A DNA stretch of 64,000 nt from Mesorhizobium sp. ORS 3324 (GTDB lineage: Bacteria > Pseudomonadota > Alphaproteobacteria > Rhizobiales > Rhizobiaceae): positions 1 to 64,000 of the forward strand of contig LM655199.1 of NCBI GenBank assembly GCA_000824825.2, given 5' to 3'. A program made the position numbers and the translations under genes. Below, one piece after another: positions 7,228-53,888 of the stretch. The notes beneath the pieces are model-generated. The model had not been told where the DNA came from. It saw only the letters and a list, made by a program, of their open reading frames with translations, and did no database searches. The first letter of the stretch is position 1; every line of letters starts with the position of its first letter.

Positions 7228-9138
7228 TCAAAATGGGTGGTGGCGCTTAGAGCCGAACGCGTTGATCCAGATTTCTAGCTTACGGAGGGCCGATCGAAAG
7301 CTTGCTTCGTCTCGGCAGAAGATAATGGCTGTCGAGCGATTGTAGTCCTCATCTCTGTCGCTCAGGAACGCTTCGGCCTCATCCTTGCTCAATCGCTGGT
7401 CAACCGCTTTCCGCAATTTCTGACGCCACAAATTTGCTTCGGCTAGGCTGTCACGGTCAGCCTGTTGGCGGCGTTCAATCGCGGAGAGGATTTCACGCGC
7501 CTTCCCGGTGGCGTGATAGCCATGATATGCGGCCTCCAAAGGCGAGCGACCGTCAAGATCAGGATGCGGCTGGCTCAGCCATGCGCCGGGGTCGTTGAGT
7601 ACCGATTCGGCGTACTCCGCAAGCTCTTTCTGCCGATTGATTTTGATTGTCTCAGCTTGCACGGCAGCTCTGGCTTTTTTCTCCGCTTCCTTCGTGGCAA
7701 CAGCAGCCAGGCGACGATCGCATTCGTTTGCAATCGGAAGGCCCAACAGTTCACGTACGTCAGTGCGAGTGCCATTGAAAAGGCCAACGATGGCGCGCAA
7801 CTCGGCTTCAACTGGTTGCATTGTGCGCGTGCTTGCAAGCAGAGCGGCGTACGGTTCAGCTGTCTCCGGATTGGTCATGTTCAGCCAATCCTCAACCGTC
7901 ATACCGCCGCGTTCTTCGTCAGGCAGTTGGTCAAGAAGCCATCGCACCGTTTCTTCTATCCCCGTTCGGGCGGAAGACCTGCTCATCTCTTCCATGACTT
8001 GATCGAACCAAGACGAAGCCACGGCCGGCGAAATTGCGAAACCGTGCGTCCAATCCAGTGCGACGCCGACTCCGGTAAGATATTTCAGATAGAACTCCAC
8101 AGCCCTCCATGGTGCCGCAAAGCGATTGTCTAGCGCTGCGATGGCCGACTCAAGGTCGTTGCTCATCCATCTGAATTCCGGGCGGACAAGACCCTTGCTT
8201 GCAAGGTGCTTCGTCGCTGAAATCGCTGTTGGCAGCTTCTTTCCGAGTCCTTTGCCGTACAGGACATCGGCGAGAACAATAGCTTGCCAGTTGCTGGGAT
8301 GCGTAGTGAAGCAGGCATACCCGGCAACCTCTATCCCGAAGTGCTTGTCCAGGCCGATTCCGCGCAAGACATCGATGGTCGATATGGGTAGAGGTTCCGG
8401 CATTGAGCCCAGAGCAATGTTGTAGGCGCGGGCTTTCTGTCGAGCATCGGCCGTCAGTTTGTTCGCAGCGGCGACGAGTGCTGCAGTGGCTTCTTTTTGC
8501 AGCTCTACAACAGCATTCTCGACCGCCTCGTTGAACAGCCATTTCCGGGGAGCCGAGCGGATTACAGCATCGGCAACCACCTCAGGCGCGGCATCCCTAG
8601 GTATGTGCGAAAGGTCAATTTCTATCGCCGCAATACCGCGTTGGCGGATGCGTCGAATCTTTTCTTCGTCACAGGGGTGTGTGACCGCAATCTCTACGAA
8701 CAGCTTTCGTCCGTCGAGGGTGACATAGAGATCAGGGACTATCTGTTGCGGGTCACGGAATTCGAGAGTCGCAGACTCGAGTTCAATTCTTTCTCGACCC
8801 GGAAGGATCCGTTCGACGTTCCCATGGCTAGCGATCCGCTTCGGGACGAACAAGAGGAGGCGTTCCTTGATGATCTGCTTGGCTAGTTTGTGCAGCGCCG
8901 TTTCCGGCCCTCCGCCACAGGCATCGCGATGATGGTGCGCGAAATGTGGCGTCTCTGCCAACGTCTTGGCTACCAGGCGACCTCCGCACATCCCGGGGCA
9001 GACGCAATCGCATCCGAGCCCGCGGACGGCCATTGAGATGTGCACCAGACTGCCATCAGACTGCTGCCCATACACAAGCTCGGCGCGATCCGAGCCGAAC
9101 TTTGTACGCAGAGGTCCATGGCCTTCACGAACTGACAT
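7228..9138 (-). CDS. CoiA-like nuclease with zinc-ribbon N-terminus and MbcA/ParS-like C-terminal segment
   Basis: 636 aa. Near the N-terminus is a Cys/His cluster (C43, C45, C47, C51, then HFAHHH and C74), as in CoiA-like proteins, which combine a zinc-binding module with a PD-(D/E)XK nuclease. The nuclease-like part follows: PDLYVTLDGRKLFVEIAVTH at about 135-154, then K160 and AAIEIDLS. In this family Asp, Glu, His and Lys at these places are thought to form the active site. Residues about 515-560 read DPGAWLSQPHPDLDGRSPLE and then AREIL, resembling the DUF2384 (MbcA/ParS/Xre antitoxin) C-terminal domain, an unexpected attachment. The 350-residue middle is helical and unassigned. CoiA itself acts in natural competence; an island copy more likely serves nucleic-acid processing or defence. 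Confidence 0.68.
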   Translation of the reverse strand: MSVREGHGPLRTKFGSDRAELVYGQQSDGSLVHISMAVRGLGCDCVCPGMCGGRLVAKTLAETPHFAHHHRDACGGGPETALHKLAKQIIKERLLLFVPKRIASHGNVERILPGRERIELESATLEFRDPQQIVPDLYVTLDGRKLFVEIAVTHPCDEEKIRRIRQRGIAAIEIDLSHIPRDAAPEVVADAVIRSAPRKWLFNEAVENAVVELQKEATAALVAAANKLTADARQKARAYNIALGSMPEPLPISTIDVLRGIGLDKHFGIEVAGYACFTTHPSNWQAIVLADVLYGKGLGKKLPTAISATKHLASKGLVRPEFRWMSNDLESAIAALDNRFAAPWRAVEFYLKYLTGVGVALDWTHGFAISPAVASSWFDQVMEEMSRSSARTGIEETVRWLLDQLPDEERGGMTVEDWLNMTNPETAEPYAALLASTRTMQPVEAELRAIVGLFNGTRTDVRELLGLPIANECDRRLAAVATKEAEKKARAAVQAETIKINRQKELAEYAESVLNDPGAWLSQPHPDLDGRSPLEAAYHGYHATGKAREILSAIERRQQADRDSLAEANLWRQKLRKAVDQRLSKDEAEAFLSDRDEDYNRSTAIIFCRDEASFRSALRKLEIWINAFGSKRHHPF

Positions 9139-9633: not shown

Positions 9634-12600
9634 CTAGAAAAGCGTCCCGAGAACCTTCCATGTCTGTTCGACAACCGGGATACCGGCGGTCGGCGATACT
9701 CCACTGACCGGAAACTGTACAAATTCCCCCTCGCCAGTCTGACCAACATTCTCAAGATAATAGACGGTCTGCGAACCAGGCATGACCTTTCCGAGCCGTT
9801 TGAGATAGGCAAAGTGCTCGCTCGAAAACTCGTCGGCTCTGGTAACGACTGCCAAGATGCGCCCGTCGAGTAGCGCCAGGTCTGGAGCGACCCCCAGCAG
9901 GACATAGCCCGCGTCGAGCGCAACGGGGAAAGCGCTGTCGCCCACAACGCCCGCGGCAGCGACTACCTGTTCGAGGATGGGCGAGCGTTCGGTTTCGACC
10001 GCCTCGTCCTGCGACTTCGCAACCGTGGTCTCATCGAACAGCACCCCGATCACCTTGCCAAGATGCGCGCCGCTGCGCTGAATGAAGTGGGTCGGCGGAG
10101 TGCGCGGGTTTGTCGATGGCATCGTCTCTAGTGCAATCCGGGCGCGATCCGATTTATCGAGCCCGATTCTCCGCGCGTATGTCTTGCCGGCGGTGCGAAC
10201 GATCGCGAGGTCACCATTCTTCACCTCGGCCGTTGCAGATACGATGAGGGTCTGACCTGGGAAGGCGACCATGCCCAGCGTCGGCGCCCTCAGGGTGAAC
10301 AGCGAGACGTCACCGAGTGACGCGAGATCCAGTCGCTCCATCGCCTGGTCGATTGTCGTGAGCGGGGCCCCGGCCGCGCGGGCGGCCAACCGGCCGACAA
10401 CGGAGATTGGTGTGCTGCGAAGCGCGACCAGCTTCATGTCCGGAGTGGCCTTCTGGGCTTCCGCCAGAGCCTCCTTTGGCGGTAGCCTGCCCATGAATCT
10501 TGCGTAGGCGAGCCAGCATGCGTCGATTGCCGAGAAAACGTCTTCGTAGGCCTGCCTGACGATTTCGGCCTCGACGGGCGTGATCTGATCGGCGCGACCG
10601 TGGTGAGCCTTATTGATGACCTCTTTGAAAGAGGCGCCTGGCTTTAGTGCTGGCAGCTCAAGCAGTCGTCGGAATGGTTCTTCGTTGAATGGACGTTCGC
10701 CGCGGTTGCGAGCGTTGGCGATCTTATGGAGCAGATCGCTCATTGTCGGGTCATGCAGAACCGCTGGATCCGAGGCGAGCAGATCCCACAGCTTGATCTC
10801 GATGCGCACGCGAACAAGATAGACGAATTCGCGGGCGAGGCCGGTGTCGTTTGGATCCGTTTTTTGCCAGTGCTCGCACCGAACACGAACCTCGTCGACA
10901 ACCGGGGCAAGGCTCACGGTGCATTTCGAGGTTGAGATAGCCGAGAATTCCCAAGTTTCAGTTCGCTGCTGTCCCACCACGCGCTTGTCGGCGGCGACGA
11001 ATGCTTCGATTGTGGGGATGAAGCCGAAATCATTGCTGACAATGATCGGATTCATTCCCTCGGCGATCAACGCTGGCACTGTGGCGGCAAGGTTGGCGAC
11101 GTTCCCAGGGTCGAGCAAGTCCTGCGGATCGTCCATGAGTATGGTGGAAATGCCGCCCGATCGGGACCAGACCTGCTGCCAAAGCGCCAGGACGAAGGCG
11201 GAGAGGAAAGCCCGCAGTGCCGAGGCGTTCATCACATGATGAGCCTCGACCAAGTGCTTGCCATGGGCCGCAAGAAACGTGAAGCCATCGCTCTTGGCGG
11301 GGTCCAGTCCCGCATATTCCGGCGCTTGAACGAAATGAGCCTTGTACATGCGTTGCGACCAAGACGTCGCCTTCTCCTGTAGGTCCGTGAGCAGGCCGGC
11401 GACCTGATTATGAACGAGTTCTGGAAAACTCTTGAACGGCTCGACGGCTTTGGCAGCCCGCGCTAACCTATCGATCCGCGTTCGGGCCTTGGCCCACTTC
11501 TCGCAAGTATCCTTGATCTGCCCCAACTGGCGGCGAATACCTGCGAAATCGGTTGCCGCATCGAGGTAAGCCTTCAGGATGGCTAGTTGCCCGTGGACGG
11601 TCCGTTCGTTGGCTGGGAGCGCAGTTTCATCAGCTTCGGTTCGCATCACTTTGAAAACAGCGCCTCGCGCGAACTCGGCACGCGCGACGCGATAGCGGGA
11701 GAGTGCCATTGCCCGTCGCACGCCACGCATCGCGGCGCGCAGGTTTTCATTGTCGGGAATCTCGGACGGAAGATTGATGCCGGGCAGCGGCTCGCGCTCG
11801 GGAGCGTCTTTCCAAGCCGCGGCGCAAAGGGAGGCGACGGCTATTGCCATTGGCTTCAAAGCCTGCGGAAAATCGGCAAGCTGGAAGACCTCCTTCGACA
11901 AGGCTGCGCCGTATACTGAAGCCAAATCGTCAGGGACGTTGTCGTCGACGAACCGGCGCAGCTTTTCAGGTAGCCGATCGCGTAGACCCTTTTTGGTGTC
12001 CCGCTCCCACTCCGCCGATGTCTTCAACATCGCTGCGTCGGCCTTGCGGGCGTCCTCCAGCGCCTGCACCACCGACTTGTCTAGCAGGGCGTCGGTCGGA
12101 ATTGCACCGGGCTGCAGGAGATCGCGCTCGCAAACAGGGCAGGTGACGAATGCATGACCCGGATGAGCCGCATCGTGCCACCTCGCCACGAGGCCATAGA
12201 GACGAAGCCGATCGGCGCGCTCGGCGTGTGAAAGCTGCGCTACGATAGCCGCCGCCTCGCGCCCGATGTCCTGCAATACGGCTTCGGCGTCGTTCAGATC
12301 CTCCTCGCTCAGCTCGCCAAGACTCTGCGCGAGCTGCATTGAAGGCAGGCCCCTGAGCGCGGCGCTACTGAAGCAATTCTCCGCCGCCTTGATGGCTTCG
12401 TCGAAGCGCTTGATCTCGTTGTCATTCGTCAGCCGAGGAAGTGTTCCAAGAATCAATCGGGCACCTGCAGCAGATTGATCCTCGGCCGCCTTCAATATTT
12501 CCTCGGCTCGCTTGAGACCGATCTTCCACTCATCCGGGGCGGCCTCCTTGGGCGCCGCTACGCAGCTCAAGTCCGGCAGTCCCTCGCCGTCCTTGAGAAG

Positions 12601-13623
12601 ATCACTCAGCGTCGTCACCTGTTTGGCGCCGTCGCTCTCGCAGCGCTCCTTGTCCTCGGTGGCTTGTTTGGAGTACTTCCCTGTCAAACGCTCGTAGAGG
12701 CGACCGCTTCGGATCCCGAAATGGGTCAATGGCCGCAAGCCGGTCAGGGTCGATACCGCCTGCGAGAGTGTCGTCTTGTCATCGAAACGGGTCGCTGCGG
12801 CAATCCCGGGCATCAATGTGCCGACCTGGAGCGCCAGCTCCGACAATCCAAGCTTGTCCAGTCCGATGGCGGTCGTCTTGAAGGCCTTCTTGCCGTCTCG
12901 TTCGAGGCGCCGTTCAACTTCTACTTCGCTTCCGTCGACCAAAGACCGGAACTTCAGGCGCACCCACGTATCGACCTGCGGTTGTCCATCGACAGCCAGA
13001 AGCTCCTTTTCCGTCGGAATCGGGACTATCGGCGGCAGCTCGAACGAAGCCTTCGGGCCTTCGATGTCTTCATCGGGGGCGATCTGAACCGTGATGGGTA
13101 TGTGCAAGGGCGAGGGGAGGCCTTGAGAGCGATGCCCATAACCCGTCAAGCACCAGCAAACGGCGCTGATCAGCGAAGTTTTGCCCGCGCCGTTGAAACC
13201 TCGAAAGAGTGTCGCATGGCGCGAAAGATCAAGCGTGAAGGGCTTCGGGTCCGCGCCGTTGTCAATACAATGGCGGTGAAGACCGCGGAAACGATGCGCC
13301 GTAATCGCCACCAACTGCCAGCGTTGTTGTTGGCTTGCCTGGCGCGTCATCGGAGCGGTCACTTTGGAGGGTTTGTCCAATGCGTCCAGCAAGCGATCGA
13401 TCTCGCCGTCCAGGATGTTGGTGTCCTTGTCGGGGTTCCAGTAGGCCTGCCGATTCTGGTTGTAAAAGGCAAGCAAGGTGCGACTGTCTTCCAGAGGAAG
13501 CGAGAAGGCGCTCGCACCTGATACATGCAGAGCAGCGCCTGTCACCAGATGCTGAACAACCTCGTCCAGAGTCAGATCCGCGATTTGTACCGCCACAGCA
13601 AAAATCCCCAAATGATTTCTCAA
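9634..13623 (-). CDS. SMC/Rad50-like AAA ATPase with tandem S24 (LexA)-like C-terminal domains
   Basis: 1329 aa. An N-terminal region of about 100 residues precedes an SMC/Rad50-type head: ITAHRFRGLH, then Walker A RGFNGAGKTS (141-150). A zinc-hook-like CPVC is at 495-498 with helical arms on each side. A signature-like NASALRAFLSAF follows near 799-810, and the Walker B STILMDDP at 826-833. After a helical region (about 860-1090) the last 215 residues look like two S24/LexA-like beta domains. The first (about 1115-1197) has GMVAFPGQTLIV, GDLAIV and YARRIG, so the Ser and Lys positions are Val and Arg. The second (about 1224-1329) has GVVGDSAFP, LLDGRILAVV and YLKRLG, keeping both Ser1230 and Lys1275. 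It lies 106 bases downstream of the DUF4011 helicase on the same strand, so they probably work together. The ATPase call is firm; the S24 reading is pattern-based. Confidence 0.78.
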   Translation of the reverse strand: MRNHLGIFAVAVQIADLTLDEVVQHLVTGAALHVSGASAFSLPLEDSRTLLAFYNQNRQAYWNPDKDTNILDGEIDRLLDALDKPSKVTAPMTRQASQQQRWQLVAITAHRFRGLHRHCIDNGADPKPFTLDLSRHATLFRGFNGAGKTSLISAVCWCLTGYGHRSQGLPSPLHIPITVQIAPDEDIEGPKASFELPPIVPIPTEKELLAVDGQPQVDTWVRLKFRSLVDGSEVEVERRLERDGKKAFKTTAIGLDKLGLSELALQVGTLMPGIAAATRFDDKTTLSQAVSTLTGLRPLTHFGIRSGRLYERLTGKYSKQATEDKERCESDGAKQVTTLSDLLKDGEGLPDLSCVAAPKEAAPDEWKIGLKRAEEILKAAEDQSAAGARLILGTLPRLTNDNEIKRFDEAIKAAENCFSSAALRGLPSMQLAQSLGELSEEDLNDAEAVLQDIGREAAAIVAQLSHAERADRLRLYGLVARWHDAAHPGHAFVTCPVCERDLLQPGAIPTDALLDKSVVQALEDARKADAAMLKTSAEWERDTKKGLRDRLPEKLRRFVDDNVPDDLASVYGAALSKEVFQLADFPQALKPMAIAVASLCAAAWKDAPEREPLPGINLPSEIPDNENLRAAMRGVRRAMALSRYRVARAEFARGAVFKVMRTEADETALPANERTVHGQLAILKAYLDAATDFAGIRRQLGQIKDTCEKWAKARTRIDRLARAAKAVEPFKSFPELVHNQVAGLLTDLQEKATSWSQRMYKAHFVQAPEYAGLDPAKSDGFTFLAAHGKHLVEAHHVMNASALRAFLSAFVLALWQQVWSRSGGISTILMDDPQDLLDPGNVANLAATVPALIAEGMNPIIVSNDFGFIPTIEAFVAADKRVVGQQRTETWEFSAISTSKCTVSLAPVVDEVRVRCEHWQKTDPNDTGLAREFVYLVRVRIEIKLWDLLASDPAVLHDPTMSDLLHKIANARNRGERPFNEEPFRRLLELPALKPGASFKEVINKAHHGRADQITPVEAEIVRQAYEDVFSAIDACWLAYARFMGRLPPKEALAEAQKATPDMKLVALRSTPISVVGRLAARAAGAPLTTIDQAMERLDLASLGDVSLFTLRAPTLGMVAFPGQTLIVSATAEVKNGDLAIVRTAGKTYARRIGLDKSDRARIALETMPSTNPRTPPTHFIQRSGAHLGKVIGVLFDETTVAKSQDEAVETERSPILEQVVAAAGVVGDSAFPVALDAGYVLLGVAPDLALLDGRILAVVTRADEFSSEHFAYLKRLGKVMPGSQTVYYLENVGQTGEGEFVQFPVSGVSPTAGIPVVEQTWKVLGTLF

Positions 13624-13729: not shown

Positions 13730-16700
13730 CTATTCGATCTGAACTAAGATCTGCCTTGCCTTGGCAATTGCCTCGAGCAGTCGCGCACGAGAAACCGCAG
13801 CAAGGCGCTCTACTCCAAGAATGCGTGCCAAGTCGCGTGCTGGGTCGGGCATTTCCAGAAGTTCGGGATTCTCAATCACCACCGAGGCGAGTTCGGCCAG
13901 CGGCAGGTCGGCAATAGAGCGTCGAGCCTCCTCACTTGCCGGTTGGCGATACGGCACCGAGTCCGAGACCAGGCCTTTCTTCCAAATGAATTCGCCGCTC
14001 GATTCCTGTGTGCGATCCAAGTCCCGCAGATGCAGGTCGATCCTCTCGCGGATACGGCCACCCGTGCGAAGCCACCCATGGGCCCGCGCGATGCGTTGGG
14101 CGAGAACGTCTGCTCGCACCGGGCTTTCGGTCTCCATGATGGCATCGACCATGCCCTGCAGCGTGGTCCTGTAGCTGAACTCGAAGAATTGCTCGGGGTC
14201 TGCCCGGAAGGCCGTGAGGTTGGTCACCCGGTAACGCCCTTTCTCGCCACTGCCTTGTACCGGCTGGCCCGCCATCGTTGAAAATTCTGGAAAGTCCGAA
14301 GGCTCGGGAACTGTTGGAGCATTCGCCGAAACGAGCTCGAAATTGGAAGTATTCCGAACGGGCGGGAGCTCCTCGACCACTGGCGGTGTCTGGTCCACGG
14401 TCTCGGCTGTCGGCTCGATTTGCTGGCCCATTTCCCAGCGTATCGTCACCTCTTGCGTGGTTTCGCTCGACCGACGTGCTCGACTTTCCTCGAGCAGCAT
14501 CTCCAGGCTTGCGTGGAGACGTTCGGCGCAACCGTTCGCGTCGAACCACCAGTCGGTCGACCAGACGCGCAAGATCGCCCAGCCTAGCCCGGTCAGCACC
14601 TGCTCGCGAACCTTGTCGCGATCCCTTGCTGTCGCCGATCGATGATAGGTAGCCCCATCACATTCCACACCGGCCAGATAAGCTCCTGCAAGATCCGGGT
14701 GGCGGACGCCCAGATCGATCCGGAAATCCGAAATCCCGACTTGCGGGACTACGATCCATCCGCGCCGCTCCAGTTGCTCGGCAACTGCCTCCTCGAACGG
14801 CGAATCGAAACCGCCGACAGATCCAAGATCCTGAGCAGGCAAAGCGATCGGGCCGCGTTCGGCGTAGTCGAGGAATGTCTTCAGGTGTTGGACTGCGATC
14901 GCCTTGCTTCGCGACGGATCAATCTGGTCCGCGGTAAAACCGGAGAAGATGATAAGTTCCTGTCGCGCACGTGTCACCGCCACGTTGAGGCGCCGCTCGC
15001 CGCCATCTCGGTTGAGAGCCCCGAAGTCCATCGCCGGGGGCTTTCCGGAGCCATCCTTGTAGAACGTGATCGAGAACAGGATAACATCCCTCTCATCACC
15101 CTGGACGTTTTCGAGGTTCTTCACGATCGCGGGCTCGACCCGGTCTTCGGCAAAGAACCATTCGAGTTCCGGATGATCCCGGCGCGCGGCATCGAAAAGG
15201 TCCAGGATCAGCGATTGCTGCTGCGCGTTGAATGTGATTACGCCGAGCGTCGGCCGGCCGTTCTCCGGCAACGCCAGCCAGCCCTTCATGCGACTGACGG
15301 CTTCGCCGACGACCGCCATGGCCTCGATCTTGTTGGTACGGCTCTTGCCGCGGTCGTAGATGCCGTCAGGCACCCGGTGCAGCCGCACCGCGCGATCATC
15401 GACCGCCGGCGAGGGGAACGTAACCAGACGATTGCGGTAGTAATGATAATTCGAGAACGCAATCAGCGACTCACTGCGGCTGCGATAGTGCCATCTGAGA
15501 TCGCGCACCGGAATTCCGGACGCCCTTGCCTCATCGAGAATGCTTTCCAAGTCCTTTTCGTGGTCGGCGATCTCCTCGTCGTCCTCGTTGCGGCCGAAGA
15601 AATTGGTCGGCGGCAGCTGCTTGGGATCGCCGACAATAATGGTCTGTCGCGCCCTGGCTATGGCTCCAACTGCATCCCAGGTGGTGATCTGCGAAGCTTC
15701 GTCAAAGATCACCACATCGAACAAGGCCTGGTTTGGAGGAAGGTACTGGGCAATCGATAGCGGCGACATCAACATGCAGGGCGCAAGCTTGGCAAAGCTC
15801 TCAGGCATCTTACCGATCATGTCCCGGATGGATTGACTTGGCCGCTGGAGCTCCATCTGGTGCCGCAACAACCCGAGTTCGGAATTGCGCGACACGCTTT
15901 GTACCGAAGGAAGCCCATGCGCGAGCGCGCTGACCACGCGCTGGGTGGCTTGTGTGCGCACAAGATCGTCGATCTCGCGAAATTCCGTGATCGCGTTCTC
16001 GTGTTGGAACCTGCGGAAGTTTCGTAGTACCGCGTCCCCATCGAGAACCTTCGGCAGCCACCATCTTGCGTAGCCCACGCGGAACGCCGGTCGCGCCTGG
16101 TCCGGGCCTATCGCTCCCGTCTCGATCTGCTCTACCAGGGGTGCCAGATTTTGTTGGATCGCCTGCCTCTTCACCCGGCACCATTCCGACCAGTTGCGCA
16201 GCAGGTTTCGAGCATCCGCTAGCTCAATCAGCTTGGCTCTGAGCGTTTTGAGGCTAGAACCATCCGCAGGATCTGGAATCTCCCGTGCCGAAACCTCGCC
16301 GAATGCCGATCGCGCGGCGCCGAACTGCTTGGCGGCTGCCAGCAACCGGTCGCCCGCCTCGCGCAGTCGGTCGTTTTCAAGGGTGCCACGCAGACTTGGT
16401 GCGACGGAGCGAACGACGGCCCGAAATTCGTCCTGACTGCGTCCAGGAATGCGAAGTGCCGCGCGGAGACGGCGGGCGGAATCGAGTATGCTCGCGACAG
16501 CCGCCACGTCCGTTGTCAGACCTTCGATCGGTAGCGGCTTGCCTGCCAGCGAGCTTTGGTCAATTGCGGCCAGAAACTCCCTCATCCGGCGGAGCAGAGA
16601 AAGGTCCCTGCCGGGGTCCGCGGCGCCACGCTGCGTGCGGCTTTGAAGCAGTTTCTGAATCTTGCGCTTGCCGATGGCCGATCTCGGCCAAAACGATTCT

Positions 16701-19700
16701 GTCGCCTCACGCCATTGGCGGTCCAGGACATCCAAGTCGAGGTCACGGACGGTCGCGACCTCATAGGCGCCGGAGAGGCTGCGCTCGGTCTCGCGATAAC
16801 CCCCGATCGCGCGTTCCAGCTTGGCAAGTGCTTCGCCGAAGGTCGAGAAATCCCGGTCATACGCAATCGAGATATCGCGGTTCCGCGTTTGAGCCAGAAC
16901 CTGTGCCAGGCCTGTGAGCGACTGGAGTTCCGTATGCGAGAACGTCTCATTAGGCGAGAGACCGAGACTGGACTGGTAATCCCGTATCGATGCCGTCAAT
17001 TGCCCGATGGCCGAGTGCAGGGACGTCGCGGCGGCCAGCAACCTTAGTTGCCAATCGCTGCTCCACTCTCCGACATCGATCAGATCCAACGCTGGCTGAC
17101 GTTCGACCGACGCGAACACCAGGCCGACCTGCGCGGCCAGCTCCTCCAGGTCAAGAAGAGTTTGCGCATCGTGCCCATCGGACGACTGCCACGCGAATGT
17201 CGGCGCAGCTTGGTCGTTCGACTTCAGCGCTATGCCCAACGCCAAATAGGGCGTCCATCCGTTTGGATACCGTTTGTGAAGCGCCTCGACATAGGCATTC
17301 AATTCATCCCGACGCAGGCGAAGCCGCTCGTTGACTGCGATCCATTGAGACGCATCGGCGTTACCTCCGTGCTCCCACGAAGCCTTCAGTTGCGTCAGAA
17401 AACGTCTCCGATCGGCCTTGTTCGAGTGCAGCTCGATGCAGTGGTTTCCAAGTCCATGCTCACGCAGCCGGCGGTAGACGACATCAAGTGCGGCCGTCTT
17501 TTCCGCCACGAACAGGACGGTCTTGCCTACGCCCAGACAGTTGGCGATCATGTTGGCGATCGTCTGGCTTTTTCCCGTCCCGGGCGGCCCGACGATCACG
17601 AAGTCGCACCCCTCGGCTGCCGCCAGGCTGGCGGCGGTCTGCGATGAATCGAGGGGAAGGAGGCTTATGATTGCGGAAGGTTCGTAAGCGCGGTCCAGCT
17701 CGGCCTCATCACGAAAGGCTGACTGACCACCCCAGCTCTCGAACGCCTGCTCGGGCGTGTCGATAAGATGGCGAACGACCCTGTTCTGTCGCAGTGCATC
17801 GGTTCGCTCGACAAGATCCTTCCACATCAGGAACTTTGCGAAGGAGAATGTCGACAAGGCGGTTTCGTCGATGACCTCCATTCCAGGAACATCGCGGACC
17901 GCCTGTCGCATGGAGGATAAGATGCGCGGCACATCGATCCCGCTGTCGTCGAGCGGCAGATCGCCGGCGAACTGCGGAAGGCGAAGTTCGAACTCCCGCT
18001 CCAGGAACTGGAGAAGGGTGGCGTTGAACCGCGGCTCGTCTTCATGGAAGCGGATCGTGAAGCGCGAGCTCGCGCTCCGTCTTTCTAGCCGGACCGGCAC
18101 CAGGAGAAGCGGTGCCCGATAACTGCGTTCATCTTCGGGCTTTTTCTTCCAGCGAAGAAAACCCACGGCCAGGAACAGCGTGTTTGCTCCACCCTCGGCG
18201 AAGTCATTGCGCACCTGACGGTAGAGATCGATCAATCTGGCCTCAAGCTGACGGACGTCCAACGTTGAGGCAAGCTCATCCCTGAGCAGCGCTTCCGCGG
18301 CAAAACCGCGTTGCAGATCGCGACCATGGACATCGCGATAGAGCTCCGCATCTCGCTCCCCCAAAGGGTTCTGCTCGGGCAAGGAAATGAGGCGCACGGC
18401 AGCACCATTCGCCAGCCTGTCCTCGAGATAGGCGACGTCGGTACACAAGAACGGGATCGTCTTTTTTGAATCGGGGAAATTGAGCAGGCGATTCCTGAGC
18501 GTCAGGTCGAGCAGCTTCTTCTGCCAGCGGTCTATGCGACCAGCGGCTGTGGTAGGCTTTATCTCAACGACCTCCACTGGCATCGCGCCAATTGCTGGTG
18601 CCGCGGGGAGCGGCAGTGCCACGACGGCCGCAGATGGCTCCTCCTCGGCGGCATTGCGCCGGATAGGCTCATGCGAAGCGAGAGGCGTTATACCGCCGCT
18701 GCGCGATCGCCTGACGTCGATGGCCGCAACGAATGCATGCGCCTGTTCTTCTGCGAGCCGGATACCGAGCGCATTCTGCGCCGCCTCGAATGTGAGCGCG
18801 GGTCGGTGAGTGACGCCTGTGGTTTCAAACGCGATGAATTCGCGGGACGCAAGCGCCTTGCGGACCTCCATCTGGTCCGTTTCCACGGCGTTGGCGAAGG
18901 TTCGCTTGGCCAGCCAGACGCCGACAGCTGCATGCCCGTCAAACATCAGCACGGTCGGGTGCAGACCGGCAGCTTCCAGAGTAGCGGCAAACAAAAGTGA
19001 AGTGTCCAAGCAGGTCGCCAGGCGTTCCTCGGCGATCGTCGTGGGACGCCTGACCTTTTGCCCTCGGCTCTCGAAGCTCGCCGGAGGTTCGGCATAGTGC
19101 AGCCCCATGCCGGTGATCGCAGAATAGACGGCCGCAGCCAACATGTATGCCCGCTGTGGGTTTTGCGATTGATAGCCATCAAGGCCGCTGGGATGCCCGT
19201 GCGCGGCAAGCCGATCTGCCGCCGCCCTCAGGATCGGTGCAACGCCAGGGTCATTGGGCATGACGAAAGCCGGCAGCAATTGCGCCATGTCGGCGACGCC
19301 GCCCCACTCGTCGCGCGCAAGCAGCCGGACGGTCAGGCGCCGTTCGTCCAGGACCTCACCAGCCGCGGAAAGGCGCAAGGTGATTTCGCCGCGCTCGGCC
19401 TCGTTCAGGCCAGCAAGATATGCGGAATCGAACTCGACCTTGCGGTCGCTCAGTTGAAGCCTATCGCCAGGAACGAGACGGTCAACTGCCCAAGTCTTCG
19501 GTCTCAGAAACGACGGCGATGACGTGAGTTCCAGGCGGCAACTCTCCAGGCTGCCGGCGGTGTCGTTATCCAGTCGGATAGACCGGATTACCGGAATTGC
19601 GTTCTGATAGGATGCATAAGTGAAGCTGGATGCGACGTCGGCGATTATGCTCGGGGCCGTCGAGCGTTCGGCTACCGCATCATCATTTGTTACTAACTCT

Positions 19701-19750
19701 GAACTATCAACAGATTGCATTGACCCCAGCCCCCACATGCAGACTATCAA
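13730..19750 (-). CDS. DUF4011 helicase-endonuclease-DUF3320 protein
   Basis: About 2000 aa. Residues 235-285 look like a transglutaminase-like fold (ERLATCLDTSLLFAATLEAA then FDGHAAVGVWL, with C247 and H273). The DUF4011 signature RIDRWQKKLLDLTLRNRLLN is at 405-424. The superfamily 1 helicase follows: Walker A GPPGTGKS (721-728), IFDEASQ near 1348, GDPKQLPPTNFF, the YRSRSESLIAF motif and VAVTRARQELIIFSG. A Vsr/DUF559-like endonuclease spans about 1645-1750 (GWIVVPQVGISDFRIDLGVR, VECDGATYHRSATARDRDK), and DUF3320 about 1800-1960. This architecture is known from defence islands, where it is thought to cut foreign DNA; the target here is unknown. The frame opens at 19750, but ATG 19738 or 19720 (each after a G-rich site) is likelier. 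The gene heads a minus-strand pair with the SMC-like ATPase. Confidence 0.88.
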   Translation of the reverse strand: MIVCMWGLGSMQSVDSSELVTNDDAVAERSTAPSIIADVASSFTYASYQNAIPVIRSIRLDNDTAGSLESCRLELTSSPSFLRPKTWAVDRLVPGDRLQLSDRKVEFDSAYLAGLNEAERGEITLRLSAAGEVLDERRLTVRLLARDEWGGVADMAQLLPAFVMPNDPGVAPILRAAADRLAAHGHPSGLDGYQSQNPQRAYMLAAAVYSAITGMGLHYAEPPASFESRGQKVRRPTTIAEERLATCLDTSLLFAATLEAAGLHPTVLMFDGHAAVGVWLAKRTFANAVETDQMEVRKALASREFIAFETTGVTHRPALTFEAAQNALGIRLAEEQAHAFVAAIDVRRSRSGGITPLASHEPIRRNAAEEEPSAAVVALPLPAAPAIGAMPVEVVEIKPTTAAGRIDRWQKKLLDLTLRNRLLNFPDSKKTIPFLCTDVAYLEDRLANGAAVRLISLPEQNPLGERDAELYRDVHGRDLQRGFAAEALLRDELASTLDVRQLEARLIDLYRQVRNDFAEGGANTLFLAVGFLRWKKKPEDERSYRAPLLLVPVRLERRSASSRFTIRFHEDEPRFNATLLQFLEREFELRLPQFAGDLPLDDSGIDVPRILSSMRQAVRDVPGMEVIDETALSTFSFAKFLMWKDLVERTDALRQNRVVRHLIDTPEQAFESWGGQSAFRDEAELDRAYEPSAIISLLPLDSSQTAASLAAAEGCDFVIVGPPGTGKSQTIANMIANCLGVGKTVLFVAEKTAALDVVYRRLREHGLGNHCIELHSNKADRRRFLTQLKASWEHGGNADASQWIAVNERLRLRRDELNAYVEALHKRYPNGWTPYLALGIALKSNDQAAPTFAWQSSDGHDAQTLLDLEELAAQVGLVFASVERQPALDLIDVGEWSSDWQLRLLAAATSLHSAIGQLTASIRDYQSSLGLSPNETFSHTELQSLTGLAQVLAQTRNRDISIAYDRDFSTFGEALAKLERAIGGYRETERSLSGAYEVATVRDLDLDVLDRQWREATESFWPRSAIGKRKIQKLLQSRTQRGAADPGRDLSLLRRMREFLAAIDQSSLAGKPLPIEGLTTDVAAVASILDSARRLRAALRIPGRSQDEFRAVVRSVAPSLRGTLENDRLREAGDRLLAAAKQFGAARSAFGEVSAREIPDPADGSSLKTLRAKLIELADARNLLRNWSEWCRVKRQAIQQNLAPLVEQIETGAIGPDQARPAFRVGYARWWLPKVLDGDAVLRNFRRFQHENAITEFREIDDLVRTQATQRVVSALAHGLPSVQSVSRNSELGLLRHQMELQRPSQSIRDMIGKMPESFAKLAPCMLMSPLSIAQYLPPNQALFDVVIFDEASQITTWDAVGAIARARQTIIVGDPKQLPPTNFFGRNEDDEEIADHEKDLESILDEARASGIPVRDLRWHYRSRSESLIAFSNYHYYRNRLVTFPSPAVDDRAVRLHRVPDGIYDRGKSRTNKIEAMAVVGEAVSRMKGWLALPENGRPTLGVITFNAQQQSLILDLFDAARRDHPELEWFFAEDRVEPAIVKNLENVQGDERDVILFSITFYKDGSGKPPAMDFGALNRDGGERRLNVAVTRARQELIIFSGFTADQIDPSRSKAIAVQHLKTFLDYAERGPIALPAQDLGSVGGFDSPFEEAVAEQLERRGWIVVPQVGISDFRIDLGVRHPDLAGAYLAGVECDGATYHRSATARDRDKVREQVLTGLGWAILRVWSTDWWFDANGCAERLHASLEMLLEESRARRSSETTQEVTIRWEMGQQIEPTAETVDQTPPVVEELPPVRNTSNFELVSANAPTVPEPSDFPEFSTMAGQPVQGSGEKGRYRVTNLTAFRADPEQFFEFSYRTTLQGMVDAIMETESPVRADVLAQRIARAHGWLRTGGRIRERIDLHLRDLDRTQESSGEFIWKKGLVSDSVPYRQPASEEARRSIADLPLAELASVVIENPELLEMPDPARDLARILGVERLAAVSRARLLEAIAKARQILVQIE

Positions 19751-20045
19751 TTTTTTCAGGATATAAAAGGGTCTTGCCGGTCACGCGAATACAATCGCGT
19801 TGTTTATCCACGCGATAGTTGGGTCGGCCAAGAAAGAGGGGAGGGAAGCGAATGCACCGTCAGAAAGGGGCGGTCCGACCCTAATTTCGTGACCTCAGTC
19901 ACGGGGACTGTTGCGGAACGCTGCCGGACTTTGATACCGAGATCCAAGCTGTCTTCACCGTGCGCCATCACGGCCCGGCTAGCTAGATTGACTTAGGGCC
20001 AGCATTTTGCCTGAGCTTTTCGTTCAGGCCTGGAGAGTCCTTGGA
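19751..20045. promoter_or_regulatory. divergent promoter region between the helicase/SMC pair and the phosphoesterase/YhaN pair
   Basis: About 300 bases separate the two divergent gene pairs, so both promoters must lie here. An inverted repeat ACGCGA (19783-19788) and TCGCGT (19795-19800) is followed by a further ACGCGAT at about 19809-19815. These could be operator half-sites 35-100 bases from the helicase start. No clean -35/-10 pair was identified. Confidence 0.4.
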
Positions 20046-21305
20046 ATGGCATTTCGATTTGTTCATACGGCCGACATCCATCTCGACTCGCCACTGCGCT
20101 CCCTTGCGCTGCGCAATCCGGAGCTCGCCGAGCTGGTCGGAGATGCCAGCCGTCAGGCATTCACCGCGATCGTGGATCTGTGCCTAGCGGAGCGGGTCGA
20201 TGCGCTTGTGATCGCCGGCGATCTTTACGACGGCGACCAGACCTCGATGAAAACGGCACGCTTTTTCGCCTCCCAAATGACGCGCCTCCACCAAGCCGGT
20301 GTCAGGGTCTACATGATCCGCGGCAATCACGACGCCATGTCGCGGATTACCAAGCAGCTCGTCTTGCCAGACACGGTGACCATCTTTGGCGGCCGCAGCC
20401 AATCCGTGGTGCAGCCTGGGTCTGGGTTGGATGTTGCGTTCCATGGACTGAGCTTCGCCAGTCCGAAGGCGCCCGAAAGCCTGCTGCCCAAATATGCTGG
20501 CCCCCAGAAGGGAGCTGCCAATATCGGCATCATGCATACGAGCCTGGCCGGCTCCCCAGGCCATGACGTCTATGCACCTTGCAGCGTCGCCGATCTTCAC
20601 GGCCACGGCTTTGACTATTGGGCGCTTGGCCATATCCACGTTCGCCAGGTCCATTCCGGCGCGAGCACGTTGGTGATGCCGGGAATCCCTCAGGGGAGGG
20701 ACATCAATGAGGCGGGCGAGAAATCGGTCACGCTGGTCACCGTTCGCGACGATCGCTCCGTCGACATCGAGGAGCGGCTCACCAGTGTCGCGCAATTCGA
20801 GCGCGTGAGTGTCGATCTGACGGGGACGTCCGAATGGAGCGAGGCTGTCATCCGCATCCGGGCAGGGCTGGAACAAGCCCGAATGCAGGCCAGATCGCGC
20901 TACCTTGTTGCCCGCCTTGGTTTGGTCGGCACGTCCGCCCTTTCATGGTCGCTGATGCGCGACCGAGACCTGGCTGTCGCGGAAGCCGAGCAGGCGGCTG
21001 AGCAGGTGGGCGACACCTGGGTGGAGAGGCTGGATCTTGATCTTTCGGCGCCCGTTCTCAGAGATTCGGGCAACGTTGCCGATCCCACCTTGGAGCTCGC
21101 AGAGTCCATGCGCGCCAATGCGGGGTCAGAAGCATTTCGATCCGAAGCGCGGGAATTCGTGTTAAAGACGATCGCGGACCTGCCCCCCGATGCGAGGGGT
21201 TTCGCCGGCAAGGATGAAGCGGGGCTGGAACGGTTTCTCGACGATGTGCTTGCCGGAGGCGTCGACCTGGTCACGGCGAGGCTCAAGGCAGGTGCGACGC
21301 GATGA
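20046..21305 (+). CDS. SbcD/YhaO-like metallophosphoesterase (Mre11 family)
   Basis: About 419 aa from ATG 20046, preceded by GGAGAG; the frame is open to 20007 but those residues do not fit the family. All calcineurin-type metal motifs are present in order: FVHTADIHLDSP, VIAGDLYDGD, MIRGNHDAMS, MHTSLAGSPGHD and WALGHIHVRQ. This is the DNA-repair exonuclease layout of SbcD, Mre11 and Bacillus YhaO. The roughly 170-residue C-terminal part should contact the ATPase partner. The stop overlaps the start of the YhaN-like gene by four bases (ATGA), a sign of coupled translation. The pair should form a nuclease-ATPase complex on DNA ends; its placement beside a DUF4011 helicase suggests a defence role rather than housekeeping repair (inference). 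Confidence 0.88.
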   Translation: MAFRFVHTADIHLDSPLRSLALRNPELAELVGDASRQAFTAIVDLCLAERVDALVIAGDLYDGDQTSMKTARFFASQMTRLHQAGVRVYMIRGNHDAMSRITKQLVLPDTVTIFGGRSQSVVQPGSGLDVAFHGLSFASPKAPESLLPKYAGPQKGAANIGIMHTSLAGSPGHDVYAPCSVADLHGHGFDYWALGHIHVRQVHSGASTLVMPGIPQGRDINEAGEKSVTLVTVRDDRSVDIEERLTSVAQFERVSVDLTGTSEWSEAVIRIRAGLEQARMQARSRYLVARLGLVGTSALSWSLMRDRDLAVAEAEQAAEQVGDTWVERLDLDLSAPVLRDSGNVADPTLELAESMRANAGSEAFRSEAREFVLKTIADLPPDARGFAGKDEAGLERFLDDVLAGGVDLVTARLKAGATR

Positions 21306-24300
21306 GATTGCGGCGCCTCGATCTGACCCGCTACGGCAAGTTTACCGATAAGGCGATCGATTTCGGGGAGAAGCCTGTTTCAGGGCCCGATCTGCATATC
21401 GTTTTCGGGCTGAACGAGGCCGGCAAGTCGACGGCGCTTTCGGCCTACCTTGATCTGCTCTTCGGCATCGAGGAGCGTAGTCGGTATAATTTCCAGCACG
21501 ACTATAGCTCGATGCGCATCGGCGGGCTGCTCGAATTCGAGGGGCAGGCGCTTGCCGTTTCCCGCACCAAAAGCCGCAGCAATTCGCTGCATGATGCCGA
21601 AGGCAGGCCGCTGAGCGAAATTGCCATTTCGGCGCAGCTCGCCGGACTCTCGCGCGAAGCTTACAGCAGCATGTTCTCGCTCGATGACGAGACGCTGGAA
21701 GCGGGCGGCAAGGCGATCCTTGAATCGCGCGGCGATCTCGGCAAGCTCCTTTTCACCGCCAGCGCCGGACTCGGCCACGCCAGCGATGTCCTGGCGGCGC
21801 TTGAGGCGGAGGCCGACGGGCTCCACCGCAAACAGGCCCAGACGACCGAAATCGCGCTGCTGAAGAAACGGTTTGCGGAACTCAAGTCACGCAAGGAGGC
21901 GATCGACACGCTGGCCTCGACATTCGAAGCGCTTGAGGCGGAACGGGCGGAGGCCCACGAAAAGTATGACCGCAGCCTGGCTGAACGCGCGGCGTTGTCG
22001 GCGCGGCTCGCCACGATCGAGCGATATGCACGCGCCGCGCCACTTCTGGCCGAAATAAAACGCAAGGCAAGCAGGCTGGCTGAGCTGCCGGACCTCCCGT
22101 CTCGTCCCAGGACCTGGGGTGGCAGCGTCGCGGAATTGATCGATCAGGATGCACGCTTAAGAACCCGTCTGCAGGCCAATGCCGATGAGATCGATCGTGC
22201 GAAGGCAAAGATCGAAGCAATCGCTGTCGACGAGGCCGTGCTCGCGATCTCGGAGCAGGTGCGAGGACTTGCCGACCGCAAGGCGCGCTATCTATCCGCG
22301 GGCATGGACCTGCCGACCCGCAAGATGGAAGTCCAGCTACTCGACCAGACCGTGACGAACTGTCTTGCCGCGCTTGGAAGGTCAGCCGAACAGGATCCGT
22401 CCCGGCTCATCCTGCCGGCCGTTGTGGTCAGCGCGCTTCGCACCATGGTCGAACAGCGCTCCGGCATCACGACGAGCCTGCGGATGGCCCGCGATGAGGC
22501 CGCTGCCGCGCTTGACGGGCTCAACGCTGCCCGCGCCCGGGTGAGCGAGGAGAGGGCGGTGCCCGAGCGCGCAAGGGCGAGGCTGATGGCAGCCGCGTCA
22601 GAGGCGAAGGCCAGCAGTCTCGCACGCGAGACAAGAGAGGCGCGCGCCTTGGAGGACGAGCGGCAAACAAGGCTGGCCGACGCGATGCGGCGCCTTCAGC
22701 CGTGGTCGGGAGATGCGGAGGCACTTTCGAAAATGTCGGTTCCGCCATCGACGCAGATGGCTGCATGGAAAGCACTGGCCGCTGAGCTTCAAAGGGATAA
22801 GGCAGTCTTCTCCGAGCGATTGGCTGAGCATGAACAAAACCGGGTATCCACTTCATCACGCCTGGCTGCTGTCTGCGCTTCGGTCGATCTCACCGACGAT
22901 GACACAGCCGCAGCCATTCGACGCGAAAGGGACGAGGCCTGGCGAAATCACCGGGCCGACCTCAAGGCCGAAACGGCAGACGTGTTTGCCGCGGCACTGG
23001 CCAAGGACGATCATGTCGGCGCGGCTCGATTGGCCCATGCGGGCGAGTTGGCGGATCTGCGCGCAATCAAGCAAAAGGCTGCCGAGCACGAGGCCGCAAT
23101 CGAGCGCGTAGGCTGCCAACTCGCGGGGGTGGCCGAGCGCGCAGAAGTGGCGTCCTTTGAAATCAAGCGAATGGCCAGCGCCTTGCTTGAGGATTGCCAG
23201 GCGCCGTCGCTCGACCTCTTGATCGGACGTCTCGAGGAGCGCCTTTCCGCGCGCGCTGACGCGCTTGCCGCTTGGGACGACATCCTGCTCGCACGCGCAA
23301 GGATTGAACGCGCAACAGCCGAAGGACAGCGGATCCATCTCGGATTGACCTCGGCTCTTCAAAGCGTTGGAATTCAGCCAGAAGCCGGTGAAGCCCTGGA
23401 GGTAATGGTGGTTACCGCCGACCGCTTTCTCGATCGGCAGACGAAGGTCGACGCGGAACGCGCGGAAGCGCTGAGGAGCGTCGCCGCGAAGGAAGAAGAG
23501 CTGGCCGCCAGGCGGCTCGCGGTTGAAATCGCCGAGCGGCGAGAAGGTGCATGGCAGGCCGAGGTCAAGGAAACGCTGAAGGGAACCTGGCTCGAGGAAG
23601 GCATCGCCGGGACCGGGCTTGGTAGCGTGCTCGATCAGTTGTCTGAGCTGTCAAAGGCTCTCCAGGATCGTGAGGCAATGCGTATCCGCATCCGTAAGAT
23701 GGAGGGGGATAGGACTGCATTTGCTGAAGAGGTGGCCCGCCTTGGTGGGCGGGCAAGCGAGCGTGCAAGCGACGGGGCGCCAGAACAGGTGAGCATCGGG
23801 CTGACGGAGCGTCTGGAGCAAGCCGAGCGTGCCCGTGAGGTGAGGGCAAATCTCCTCCTTGACGTTCAAAAGTTGCAGGAGGTTCGAGAGGCACTGAACG
23901 CTGAGTTCGCGGCACACGAGACGACCAAGCAGGAAGTGCTCGATGCCTTTGGGGTGAAAACTCTGCCGGAGGTCGGGGAGCGCGATGAACAGCTTCGCGA
24001 GCGAGACGGCCTGCGGAGTGCCGTGGCCGAGCTTGAAGAAAGACTCACGAGCGAGCTCGCCCTCGACGACTTCACCCAGGCGCAGTCGTTGCTCGAAGGC
24101 CTCGATCTCGATGGGCTCGAAATTGAAAAGGCCGAGGTCGAGCGGCGCCTCGCCGACCTCGATGACACACTGCAACAGCAGCTCGTCCGGCGCACCCGGG
24201 CAACCGACAAGCTCGATGCGATCGGCGGCGACAGCGCAGTTGCACGGATCGACGCCGATCGTCGCACCGTCCTTCTCGAAATCGAGGAGAAGGCCGTTCG

Positions 24301-24772
24301 CTTTATCGAATTGAAGCTTGGCGTGATGTCGGCGACGAGCGCACTACGGGTGTATCGCGAACGTCACCGCTCTGGAATGATGAGCGAGGCCTCCGACGCC
24401 TTCGCGCTGATCACACGCGGCCAGTACACAGGCTTGACGACCCAGCCGGTAAAGGGCGGCGAGGTCCTTATCGCGACGCAGCGGGATGGCCAGTCAAAGG
24501 TCGCAGACGCTTTGTCGAAAGGCGCGCGTTTTCAGCTCTACCTGGCTTTGCGCCTCGCCGGGTATTATGAGTTTGCCAAGCTCAGGCCCGCTGTACCGTT
24601 CATCGCCGACGACATTATGGAAACGTTCGATCATCTCCGGTCGGAGGAAGTTTTCCGGTTGTTCGGCGAGATGGCCTGCGTAGGCCAGGTAATCTATCTG
24701 ACGCATCACCAGCACCTATGCGACATCGCCAAGACGGTCATTCCTAGCATCGCCATCCATGAGCTCGGGTAA
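21302..24772 (+). CDS. YhaN-like AAA ATPase (Rad50/SbcC-related)
   Basis: 1156 aa. It opens with MRLRRLDLTRYGKFTDKAID, the start of YhaN-type AAA_27 proteins, and Walker A GLNEAGKS at 36-43, followed by HDYSSMRIGGLLEFEG. Residues about 180-1000 are Ala/Glu/Arg-rich heptad-like sequence, a long coiled coil; I see no Cys-x-x-Cys zinc hook. The C-terminal lobe has SKGARFQLYLALRLAGYYEF (signature-like) and PFIADDIMETFD (Walker B) and then VIYLTHHQHL (the switch His). It overlaps the phosphoesterase gene by four bases. Known YhaO/YhaN and SbcCD pairs trim DNA ends in an ATP-dependent way. A hairpin about 20 bases after the stop may end the transcript. Confidence 0.88.
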   Translation: MRLRRLDLTRYGKFTDKAIDFGEKPVSGPDLHIVFGLNEAGKSTALSAYLDLLFGIEERSRYNFQHDYSSMRIGGLLEFEGQALAVSRTKSRSNSLHDAEGRPLSEIAISAQLAGLSREAYSSMFSLDDETLEAGGKAILESRGDLGKLLFTASAGLGHASDVLAALEAEADGLHRKQAQTTEIALLKKRFAELKSRKEAIDTLASTFEALEAERAEAHEKYDRSLAERAALSARLATIERYARAAPLLAEIKRKASRLAELPDLPSRPRTWGGSVAELIDQDARLRTRLQANADEIDRAKAKIEAIAVDEAVLAISEQVRGLADRKARYLSAGMDLPTRKMEVQLLDQTVTNCLAALGRSAEQDPSRLILPAVVVSALRTMVEQRSGITTSLRMARDEAAAALDGLNAARARVSEERAVPERARARLMAAASEAKASSLARETREARALEDERQTRLADAMRRLQPWSGDAEALSKMSVPPSTQMAAWKALAAELQRDKAVFSERLAEHEQNRVSTSSRLAAVCASVDLTDDDTAAAIRRERDEAWRNHRADLKAETADVFAAALAKDDHVGAARLAHAGELADLRAIKQKAAEHEAAIERVGCQLAGVAERAEVASFEIKRMASALLEDCQAPSLDLLIGRLEERLSARADALAAWDDILLARARIERATAEGQRIHLGLTSALQSVGIQPEAGEALEVMVVTADRFLDRQTKVDAERAEALRSVAAKEEELAARRLAVEIAERREGAWQAEVKETLKGTWLEEGIAGTGLGSVLDQLSELSKALQDREAMRIRIRKMEGDRTAFAEEVARLGGRASERASDGAPEQVSIGLTERLEQAERAREVRANLLLDVQKLQEVREALNAEFAAHETTKQEVLDAFGVKTLPEVGERDEQLRERDGLRSAVAELEERLTSELALDDFTQAQSLLEGLDLDGLEIEKAEVERRLADLDDTLQQQLVRRTRATDKLDAIGGDSAVARIDADRRTVLLEIEEKAVRFIELKLGVMSATSALRVYRERHRSGMMSEASDAFALITRGQYTGLTTQPVKGGEVLIATQRDGQSKVADALSKGARFQLYLALRLAGYYEFAKLRPAVPFIADDIMETFDHLRSEEVFRLFGEMACVGQVIYLTHHQHLCDIAKTVIPSIAIHELG

Positions 24773-53767: not shown

Positions 53768-53888
53768 GTGGATGACGTTGATGTCAATACATAGCGGGTC
53801 GTTCATCGCACCCAATCGTATCTGAGGCGGCTTCCCGTTCCCAGCGCGTCGCGCGATGCTAAGTCGCGTTGTCGAGCGGGCCAAGCCA

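Follow-up and report, generated by a model that had tools for sequence, protein, structure and literature searches.

LexA, UmuD and the phage repressors of the S24 peptidase family on the one hand, and Rad50/SbcC and other SMC-like ATP-binding cassette (ABC) ATPases on the other, are the described systems to which the protein analyzed here can best be compared. According to PMC3834820, LexA has its scissile bond at Ala84-Gly85, inside a cleavage region of residues 75-98, and its catalytic dyad at Ser119/Lys156. According to PMC5342242, UmuD 18, an arm-truncated form, is itself hardly cleaved and cuts UmuD S60A in trans; the two papers describe cleavage of LexA and UmuD as RecA-triggered. We analyzed a 64,000-nucleotide stretch of Mesorhizobium sp. 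ORS 3324 (contig LM655199.1, positions 1 to 64,000; hereafter the window), and in it one gene at 9634..13623 on the reverse strand (as are all features inside it), an open reading frame (ORF) that stays open for 1,329 codons (1,329 aa) and is called the ATPase-S24 gene below. What is apparently new, as judged from the sequence, is an S24 module, duplicated and seemingly divided, mounted on a Rad50-like ATPase: among the matches listed in the open-access literature, none named an S24-fused ATPase of this kind.

A zinc-hook ATPase with a tandem S24-like pair

Motif and profile comparisons confirmed the predicted gene product as a Rad50/SMC-like zinc-hook ATPase with a C-terminal tandem S24-like pair. 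From the N-terminus, the protein consists of a ~90-residue region, the N-terminal half of an ABC head, a middle part with the CPVC motif, the second half of the head, a further region and the two S24-like units. The first half of the head (residues ~102-243; 12895..13320) was recognized by Pfam AAA_23 over residues 128-243 (36 bits, above the cut-off of 27). Walker A, CPVC, Walker B, Ser1230 and Lys1275 all lie where the original prediction had placed them, in columns that are invariant in an alignment of 14 sequences: Walker A (GFNGAGKT, residues 142-149; 13177-13200) keeps G142, N144, G145, G147 and K148; the zinc-hook-like CPVC (residues 495-498; 12130..12141) keeps C495 and C498 in 14/14; and Walker B (residues 826-833; 11125..11148) ends in the invariant D831, D832 and P833. 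Moreover, the family profile over residues 422-529 matched a Rad50 fragment (6zff, E 0.00055).

Thus Walker A, a central CxxC, Walker B and the profile matches to Rad50 structures are shared with Rad50/SbcC and SMC-like ABC ATPases. Unlike them, the protein has an NxSxLR signature (NASALR, residues 799-804; 11212..11229; located by alignment, with N799, S801 and R804 invariant) where LSGGE would be expected, an extra N-terminal region of ~90 residues, and a helical region plus the S24 pair after the head. The helical region (residues 925-1045; 10489-10851) carries an NxAHH motif with H1008 invariant; a HEPN-like character was weighed from this motif, and no family match was found there in Pfam, PADLOC and NCBIfam scans. 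As to the defence ABC ATPases in PADLOC (LmuB of Lamassu, PbeC, DndD and PtuA), likeness lies in the P-loop region: LmuB matched best (1.2e-10), over a best stretch of 34 residues (128-161) and not over the full-length model, and the best 25 PADLOC models all aligned best in that region, none of them spanning the S24 part. The gene probably starts at a GTG at 13596 (residue 10), since the homologous ORFs of five close loci (L001, L002, L006, L007 and L009; L numbers are our locus labels) begin exactly at residue 10.

Two S24-like units, unit 1 (residues ~1072-1197; 10033..10410) and unit 2 (~1205-1329; 9637..10011), very probably make up the C-terminus, in agreement with the original prediction. 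Against a set of 31 LexA/S24 sequences from the source and related genomes, chosen with the host LexA, HHalign scored 96.6% for unit 1 (P 6.6e-10, 114 columns) and 92.9% for unit 2 (P 3.6e-7, 65 columns); in the latter, GDS aligned on GDS and LKRL on LKRF, with Ser falling on Ser and Lys on Lys. The two units scored 90.2% against each other. Controls were clean: 20 sliding segments ending by residue 1076 scored 0-1.2%, a segment overlapping unit 1 (1001-1126) scored 6.5%, and four segments mostly inside the units scored 71-96%, while reversed templates gave 0.2-0.4% and with 100 column-shuffled templates unit 1 never exceeded 2.0% and unit 2 never exceeded 4.9%. A profile built from 13 C-terminal regions matched 12 LexA (E 9.8e-5 to 0.0095), four UmuD (0.084-0.29) and one unrelated (0.42) PDB sequence, with the LexA and UmuD stretches all falling in unit 1. 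Direct LexA matches occur in unit 1 only; two methods thus identify unit 1 as S24, whereas for unit 2 it is a single method together with motif placement.

The search with S24 profiles proposed in the original prediction had a divided outcome: HHalign recovered both units, but the window protein stayed below the Pfam threshold. Specifically, Peptidase_S24 matched residues 1121-1182 (unit 1) of the full protein with 15.4 bits and the C-terminal part alone with 19.3 bits, both under the cut-off of 23.3; the NCBIfam LexA model, aligned over residues 1072-1195, was far under its family cut-off. When both units were searched together, 11 of 13 members had a Pfam S24 match with an E of 1 or less. 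The likeness to LexA, UmuD and phage repressors consists of the profile similarity of both units, the GDS and KR motifs of unit 2 and an Ala-bearing segment before unit 1. Differences from LexA and UmuD are that two units are fused, one of them without the catalytic pair, that the S24 pair lies C-terminal to an ATPase of ~1,070 residues, and that a helix-turn-helix (HTH) was not found.

Catalytic residues and a candidate cleavage segment

Homologues sharing both units were found, as the original prediction had asked, and 25 C-terminal regions, the window protein included, were aligned; duplicates (L023, L029 and L026) and partial copies (L010, L020 and L027) were left out. The putative nucleophile Ser1230 (9934..9936) and the putative general base Lys1275 (9799..9801) are identical in 25/25 members and in four further copies (L083, L084, L085 and two pieces of L086), even though distant members share only 23-29% identity over unit 2. 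The intact Ser-Lys pair claimed for unit 2 thus held up, and the loss of these residues among homologues, which would have counted against it, was not seen. Together with P1233 and R1276, likewise identical in 25/25, the two residues form the four highest-scoring columns of the C-terminus. The pair sits in the GDS and KR motifs of unit 2 and is absent from those places in unit 1. There, the Lys column contains Arg (23) or Gly (2), and the Ser column, at Thr1115, contains Thr (18), Ser (3), Asn (2), Ala (1) or Arg (1); since the Lys column never holds Lys, unit 1 lacks a catalytic pair in all 25 members. The substitution by Val and Arg that had been predicted for unit 1 was right for Arg, but HHalign aligns Thr1115, and not Val1119, with the Ser. 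Purifying selection acts on the two units as it does on the ATPase (ratio of nonsynonymous to synonymous substitution rates 0.04-0.17 where computable among 10 homologues).

At the start of unit 1, the segment GRLAAR (residues 1077-1082; 10378..10395) resembles the LexA cleavage region: HHalign placed A1081, with no gap ahead of it, on the Ala of the LexA Ala-Gly bond. A1081 is identical in 25/25 members (rank 9 of the C-terminal columns) and A1080 in 24/25 (rank 18); the column score at A1081 is 0.79, versus means of 0.39 and 0.43 in the variable stretches before and after it. Ahead of unit 2, no Ala/Cys-Gly cleavage segment was recognized in the 25-member alignment; about 35 residues before Ser1230 stands a KVIGVLF segment, the end of unit 1. 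With A1081 kept, S1230 and K1275 kept and no segment recognized before unit 2, the substrate-like segment and the catalytic pair are thus parted between the units: unit 1 has only the former, unit 2 only the latter. As the pair is invariant in unit 2, while unit 1 has an invariant Ala1081 and no Lys, unit 2 may be viewed as the cutter and unit 1 as the substrate carrier. This pattern suggests, by analogy with UmuD being cut in trans, that unit 2 cuts while unit 1 carries the substrate.

Self-cleavage weighed against its alternatives

The protein is probably a self-cleavable DNA-sensing ATPase. The explanation that we consider best, a Rad50-like ATPase with its own LexA-type self-cleavage module which is cut once as an irreversible switch, has in our estimate a probability of about 0.42. 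As regards its parts, proteolysis by the module is rather likely, and the split of substrate and enzyme between the two units is tentative, with the odds somewhat against it. In the proposed mechanism, the ATPase would engage DNA ends or another infection signal, and the unit 1 segment would then be presented to unit 2. The chain would be cut between the ATPase (up to ~1081) and an S24 module of roughly 27 kDa, and this single, irreversible event would either activate or inactivate the ATPase. Dimers joined by the hook would permit cutting in cis as well as across the two chains. RecA filaments, which trigger LexA, might set off the cut, or else the ATPase in its DNA-bound state.

Several points have to be set against such a self-cleaving switch: i) Unit 2 alone had no significant match in the PDB, where its four matches were two type II secretion entries (0.3), BAG5 (0.89) and signal peptidase I (0.91), the last being a member of the S24 superfamily, and against Pfam S24 unit 2 alone matched in only one of 13 members (0.0014); ii) AlphaFold models of residues 1040-1329 and 1190-1329 reached predicted local distance difference test values of only 41.4 and 34.5, because their shallow alignments (11 sequences each: the window protein, L001-L009 and L011) held too few diverse sequences, and Foldseek found no significant match for the poor 1040-1329 model, LexA standing at ranks 11, 16, 26, 33 and 35 among the best 50 (E 0.55-1.2), a result to which we give no weight; iii) The Gly that follows the Ala in LexA is not kept in the direct register, where residue 1082 is R in 13 members, F in five and one of seven others once each; Gly85 matters for LexA cleavage (G85D), and the title of PDB entry 1jhf (LexA) names the G85D mutant; iv) In a shifted register, HMMER puts a three-residue insertion after the Ala pair and Gly1085 opposite LexA Gly85, and Gly1085 is present in only 17/25 members; v) The conservation of A1081 could be structural; vi) The neighbors differ between loci, and the label of a defence ATPase, given in the original prediction, is plausible from context only; vii) No SOS box (in alphaproteobacteria GTTC-N7-GTTC) lies near the gene, the exact motif occurring in the 64-kb window only at 38133 and 53060, i.e., twice versus 1.92 times expected by chance.

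The S24 pair might instead be a non-proteolytic adaptor, for dimerization or for docking on RecA filaments or on the ATPase head, in which Ser and Lys are kept for some other reason. Such a role would suit both the missing pair of unit 1 and a unit 2 too divergent for direct S24 matches; moreover, PMC12984324 describes SipA, a signal-peptidase-fold protein, as having lost its pair yet retaining a function, so a protein of this fold may do so. However, a role as adaptor alone would not call for the pair, and Ser1230 and Lys1275 belong to the very columns that lead the C-terminal alignment; we consider this alternative unlikely.

Alternatively, unit 2 might be a protease for another protein (a partner like the SbcD-like nuclease, a host protein or a phage protein). 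The ATPase would then act as the sensor, unit 1 would serve regulation or docking, and self-cleavage would not take place. An invariant Ser-Lys pair is compatible with any protease of the S24/S26 type, the residue that follows A1081 varies, and recurrent neighbor genes do exist. On the other hand, unit 1 has no catalytic pair yet retains a segment resembling the LexA cleavage region, no partner gene was seen in every locus, and to our knowledge the S24 enzymes characterized to date cleave either themselves or a similar partner. A role of this kind appears improbable.

The full model of the original prediction, in which RecA filaments of the SOS response trigger LexA-like self-cleavage and so release or activate the ATPase for defence, found no support and is the least probable: the nearest solved relatives of unit 1 are LexA and then UmuD, both RecA-triggered in the sources above, and RecA control is by that kinship conceivable if unlikely, but SOS boxes are at chance level with none near the gene, and IrvR, a LexA-like protein, is reported in PMC7101444 as an exception to the RecA rule.

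Neighboring genes, distribution and meaning

Among the neighbors, a recurrent type is an SbcD/Mre11-like phosphoesterase (20007..21305, forward strand; Metallophos 6.5e-16) paired with an SbcC/YhaN-like ATPase (21302..24772, forward strand; AAA_27, 221 bits, which we take to indicate likeness to YhaN). For the SbcD survey 32 loci were scanned and five dropped as remnants or short stretches (L010, L020, L070, L077 and L085); several, L002 and L006 among them, have flanks of only 4-9 kb. An SbcD-SbcC pair lies within ~10 kb in 10 of the 27 loci (the window, L003, L004, L007, L008, L009, L016, L019, L083 and L084), while L075 and L086 have a broken or partial SbcD. The SbcD match starts 36 bases after the ATPase match in L003 and 121 bases after it in L083 and L086. 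Five sampled SbcD proteins fall into three divergent types (22-33% identity between types), and in the source genome the single TIGR00619 match is the window SbcD (60.7 bits, under the cut-off of 77.65).

As a control, nine Shedu loci (two of them stretches of 9 and 11 kb, one of 14.8 kb) had no SbcD pair; the difference in frequency gave a Fisher p of 0.039, with 27 loci that are not independent. On the family tree, with L086 counted in, the SbcD label requires seven changes, at least six of them forced by well-supported branches, and its clustering is not significant (62 of 500 shuffles needed as few changes). A regular Mre11/SbcD partner gene, as expected of Rad50 proper, is thus not seen, the pair being present in 10/27 loci. 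The tie recurs but is loose; rather than a fixed system, it may reflect joint action in the processing of DNA ends.

On its upstream side the ATPase-S24 gene is flanked by a separate gene of the anti-phage protein ProA family (13730..19750, reverse strand; Hhe-like helicase plus restriction endonuclease; NCBIfam NF058533, 2,163 bits, cut-off 1,500), perhaps part of the system that some papers call Prometheus. ProA stands beside the ATPase-S24 gene in three of 29 loci (the window, L007 and L019), a count in which L001 and L072 apparently represent one contig, two loci (L020 and L070) are fragments and some are short stretches. A fixed partnership was rejected, as ProA was not found in 26/29 loci; likewise, the ATPase-S24 gene does not belong regularly to the ProA (NF058533)/Hhe helicase locus. 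On the side away from ProA, an ORF at 7228-9138 had non-significant matches to CoiA_N (E 0.86) and Mrr_cat (0.69); relatives of it occur near the ATPase gene in L004 and L016, the latter annotated as CoiA family.

The window also encodes a TIR protein (4574-5533; PADLOC ThsB model, 3.1e-26) and a DEAD/DEAH helicase of 1,098 aa (24953-28249). The scanned ORFs after this helicase had no Pfam match; together with it they perhaps form a further defence operon. As a VirD4/TraG-type coupling protein is encoded at 53856-55919, the window may include a portion of a conjugative element. Elsewhere, the gene has near it a reverse transcriptase and a SLATT gene (L013), TerB, ATPase and helicase genes (L014), Shedu (L017) or AbiEii-type genes (L015, L083 and L084). 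The gene pair c34/c35 near L005 and L075 was discarded as IS21-type transposition genes.

The ATPase-S24 gene is rare and mobile. It was found in alphaproteobacteria, frequently on plasmids, with a match on 26 of 72,556 plasmid records. With 1e-10 as the E limit, 5/385 genomes of the class, 6/249 of the order and 5/398 of the phylum had a match; each of these counts includes the source genome itself as well as fragments or, in the phylum count, a false hit. None of 50,697 phage records had a match. In IMG/VR, one of 53 candidate stretches matched, over residues 117-174 only, i.e., the P-loop region, and three further virus scans found none. The C-terminal profile alone, run at E up to 1e-7 against the 385 class genomes, found six proteins and no other fusion of the S24 pair: five were already known from the class search, and one is an HTH-S24 protein (L082). 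G726 (L035 and L078) proved to be a false match, another ABC ATPase, and G721 (L034 and L077) ends at a contig end.

Frameshifts, stops or insertions seem to have disrupted several copies (L084, L086, L070 and the plasmid matches H6 and H63-H66), as might be expected of a gene that is costly or frequently lost. Of some decayed copies, only unit 2 or the C-terminal gene end was found (L020 8001-8384, L033 1519-1779 and L027 ~1500-1790). L020, L007 and L076 have two ORF clusters in common, and the L020 remnant is followed by genes annotated DUF2384 and RES.

The plasmids, the defence genes and the recurrent Mre11/Rad50-type nuclease pairs suggest that the protein acts against invading or broken DNA. 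The most specific form of the proposal, that a LexA split into a substrate-only and an enzyme-only S24 unit sits on a Rad50-like ATPase which works with Mre11/Rad50-type nucleases in defence against invaders, is unlikely as a whole. If the self-cleaving switch is real, a LexA-type switch would sit directly on a DNA-processing machine, not on a transcription repressor or a polymerase subunit. The division of substrate and enzyme between two units would then provide a clean, mutable test of S24 trans-cleavage, and a protease switch would be added to the SMC-like defence ATPases.

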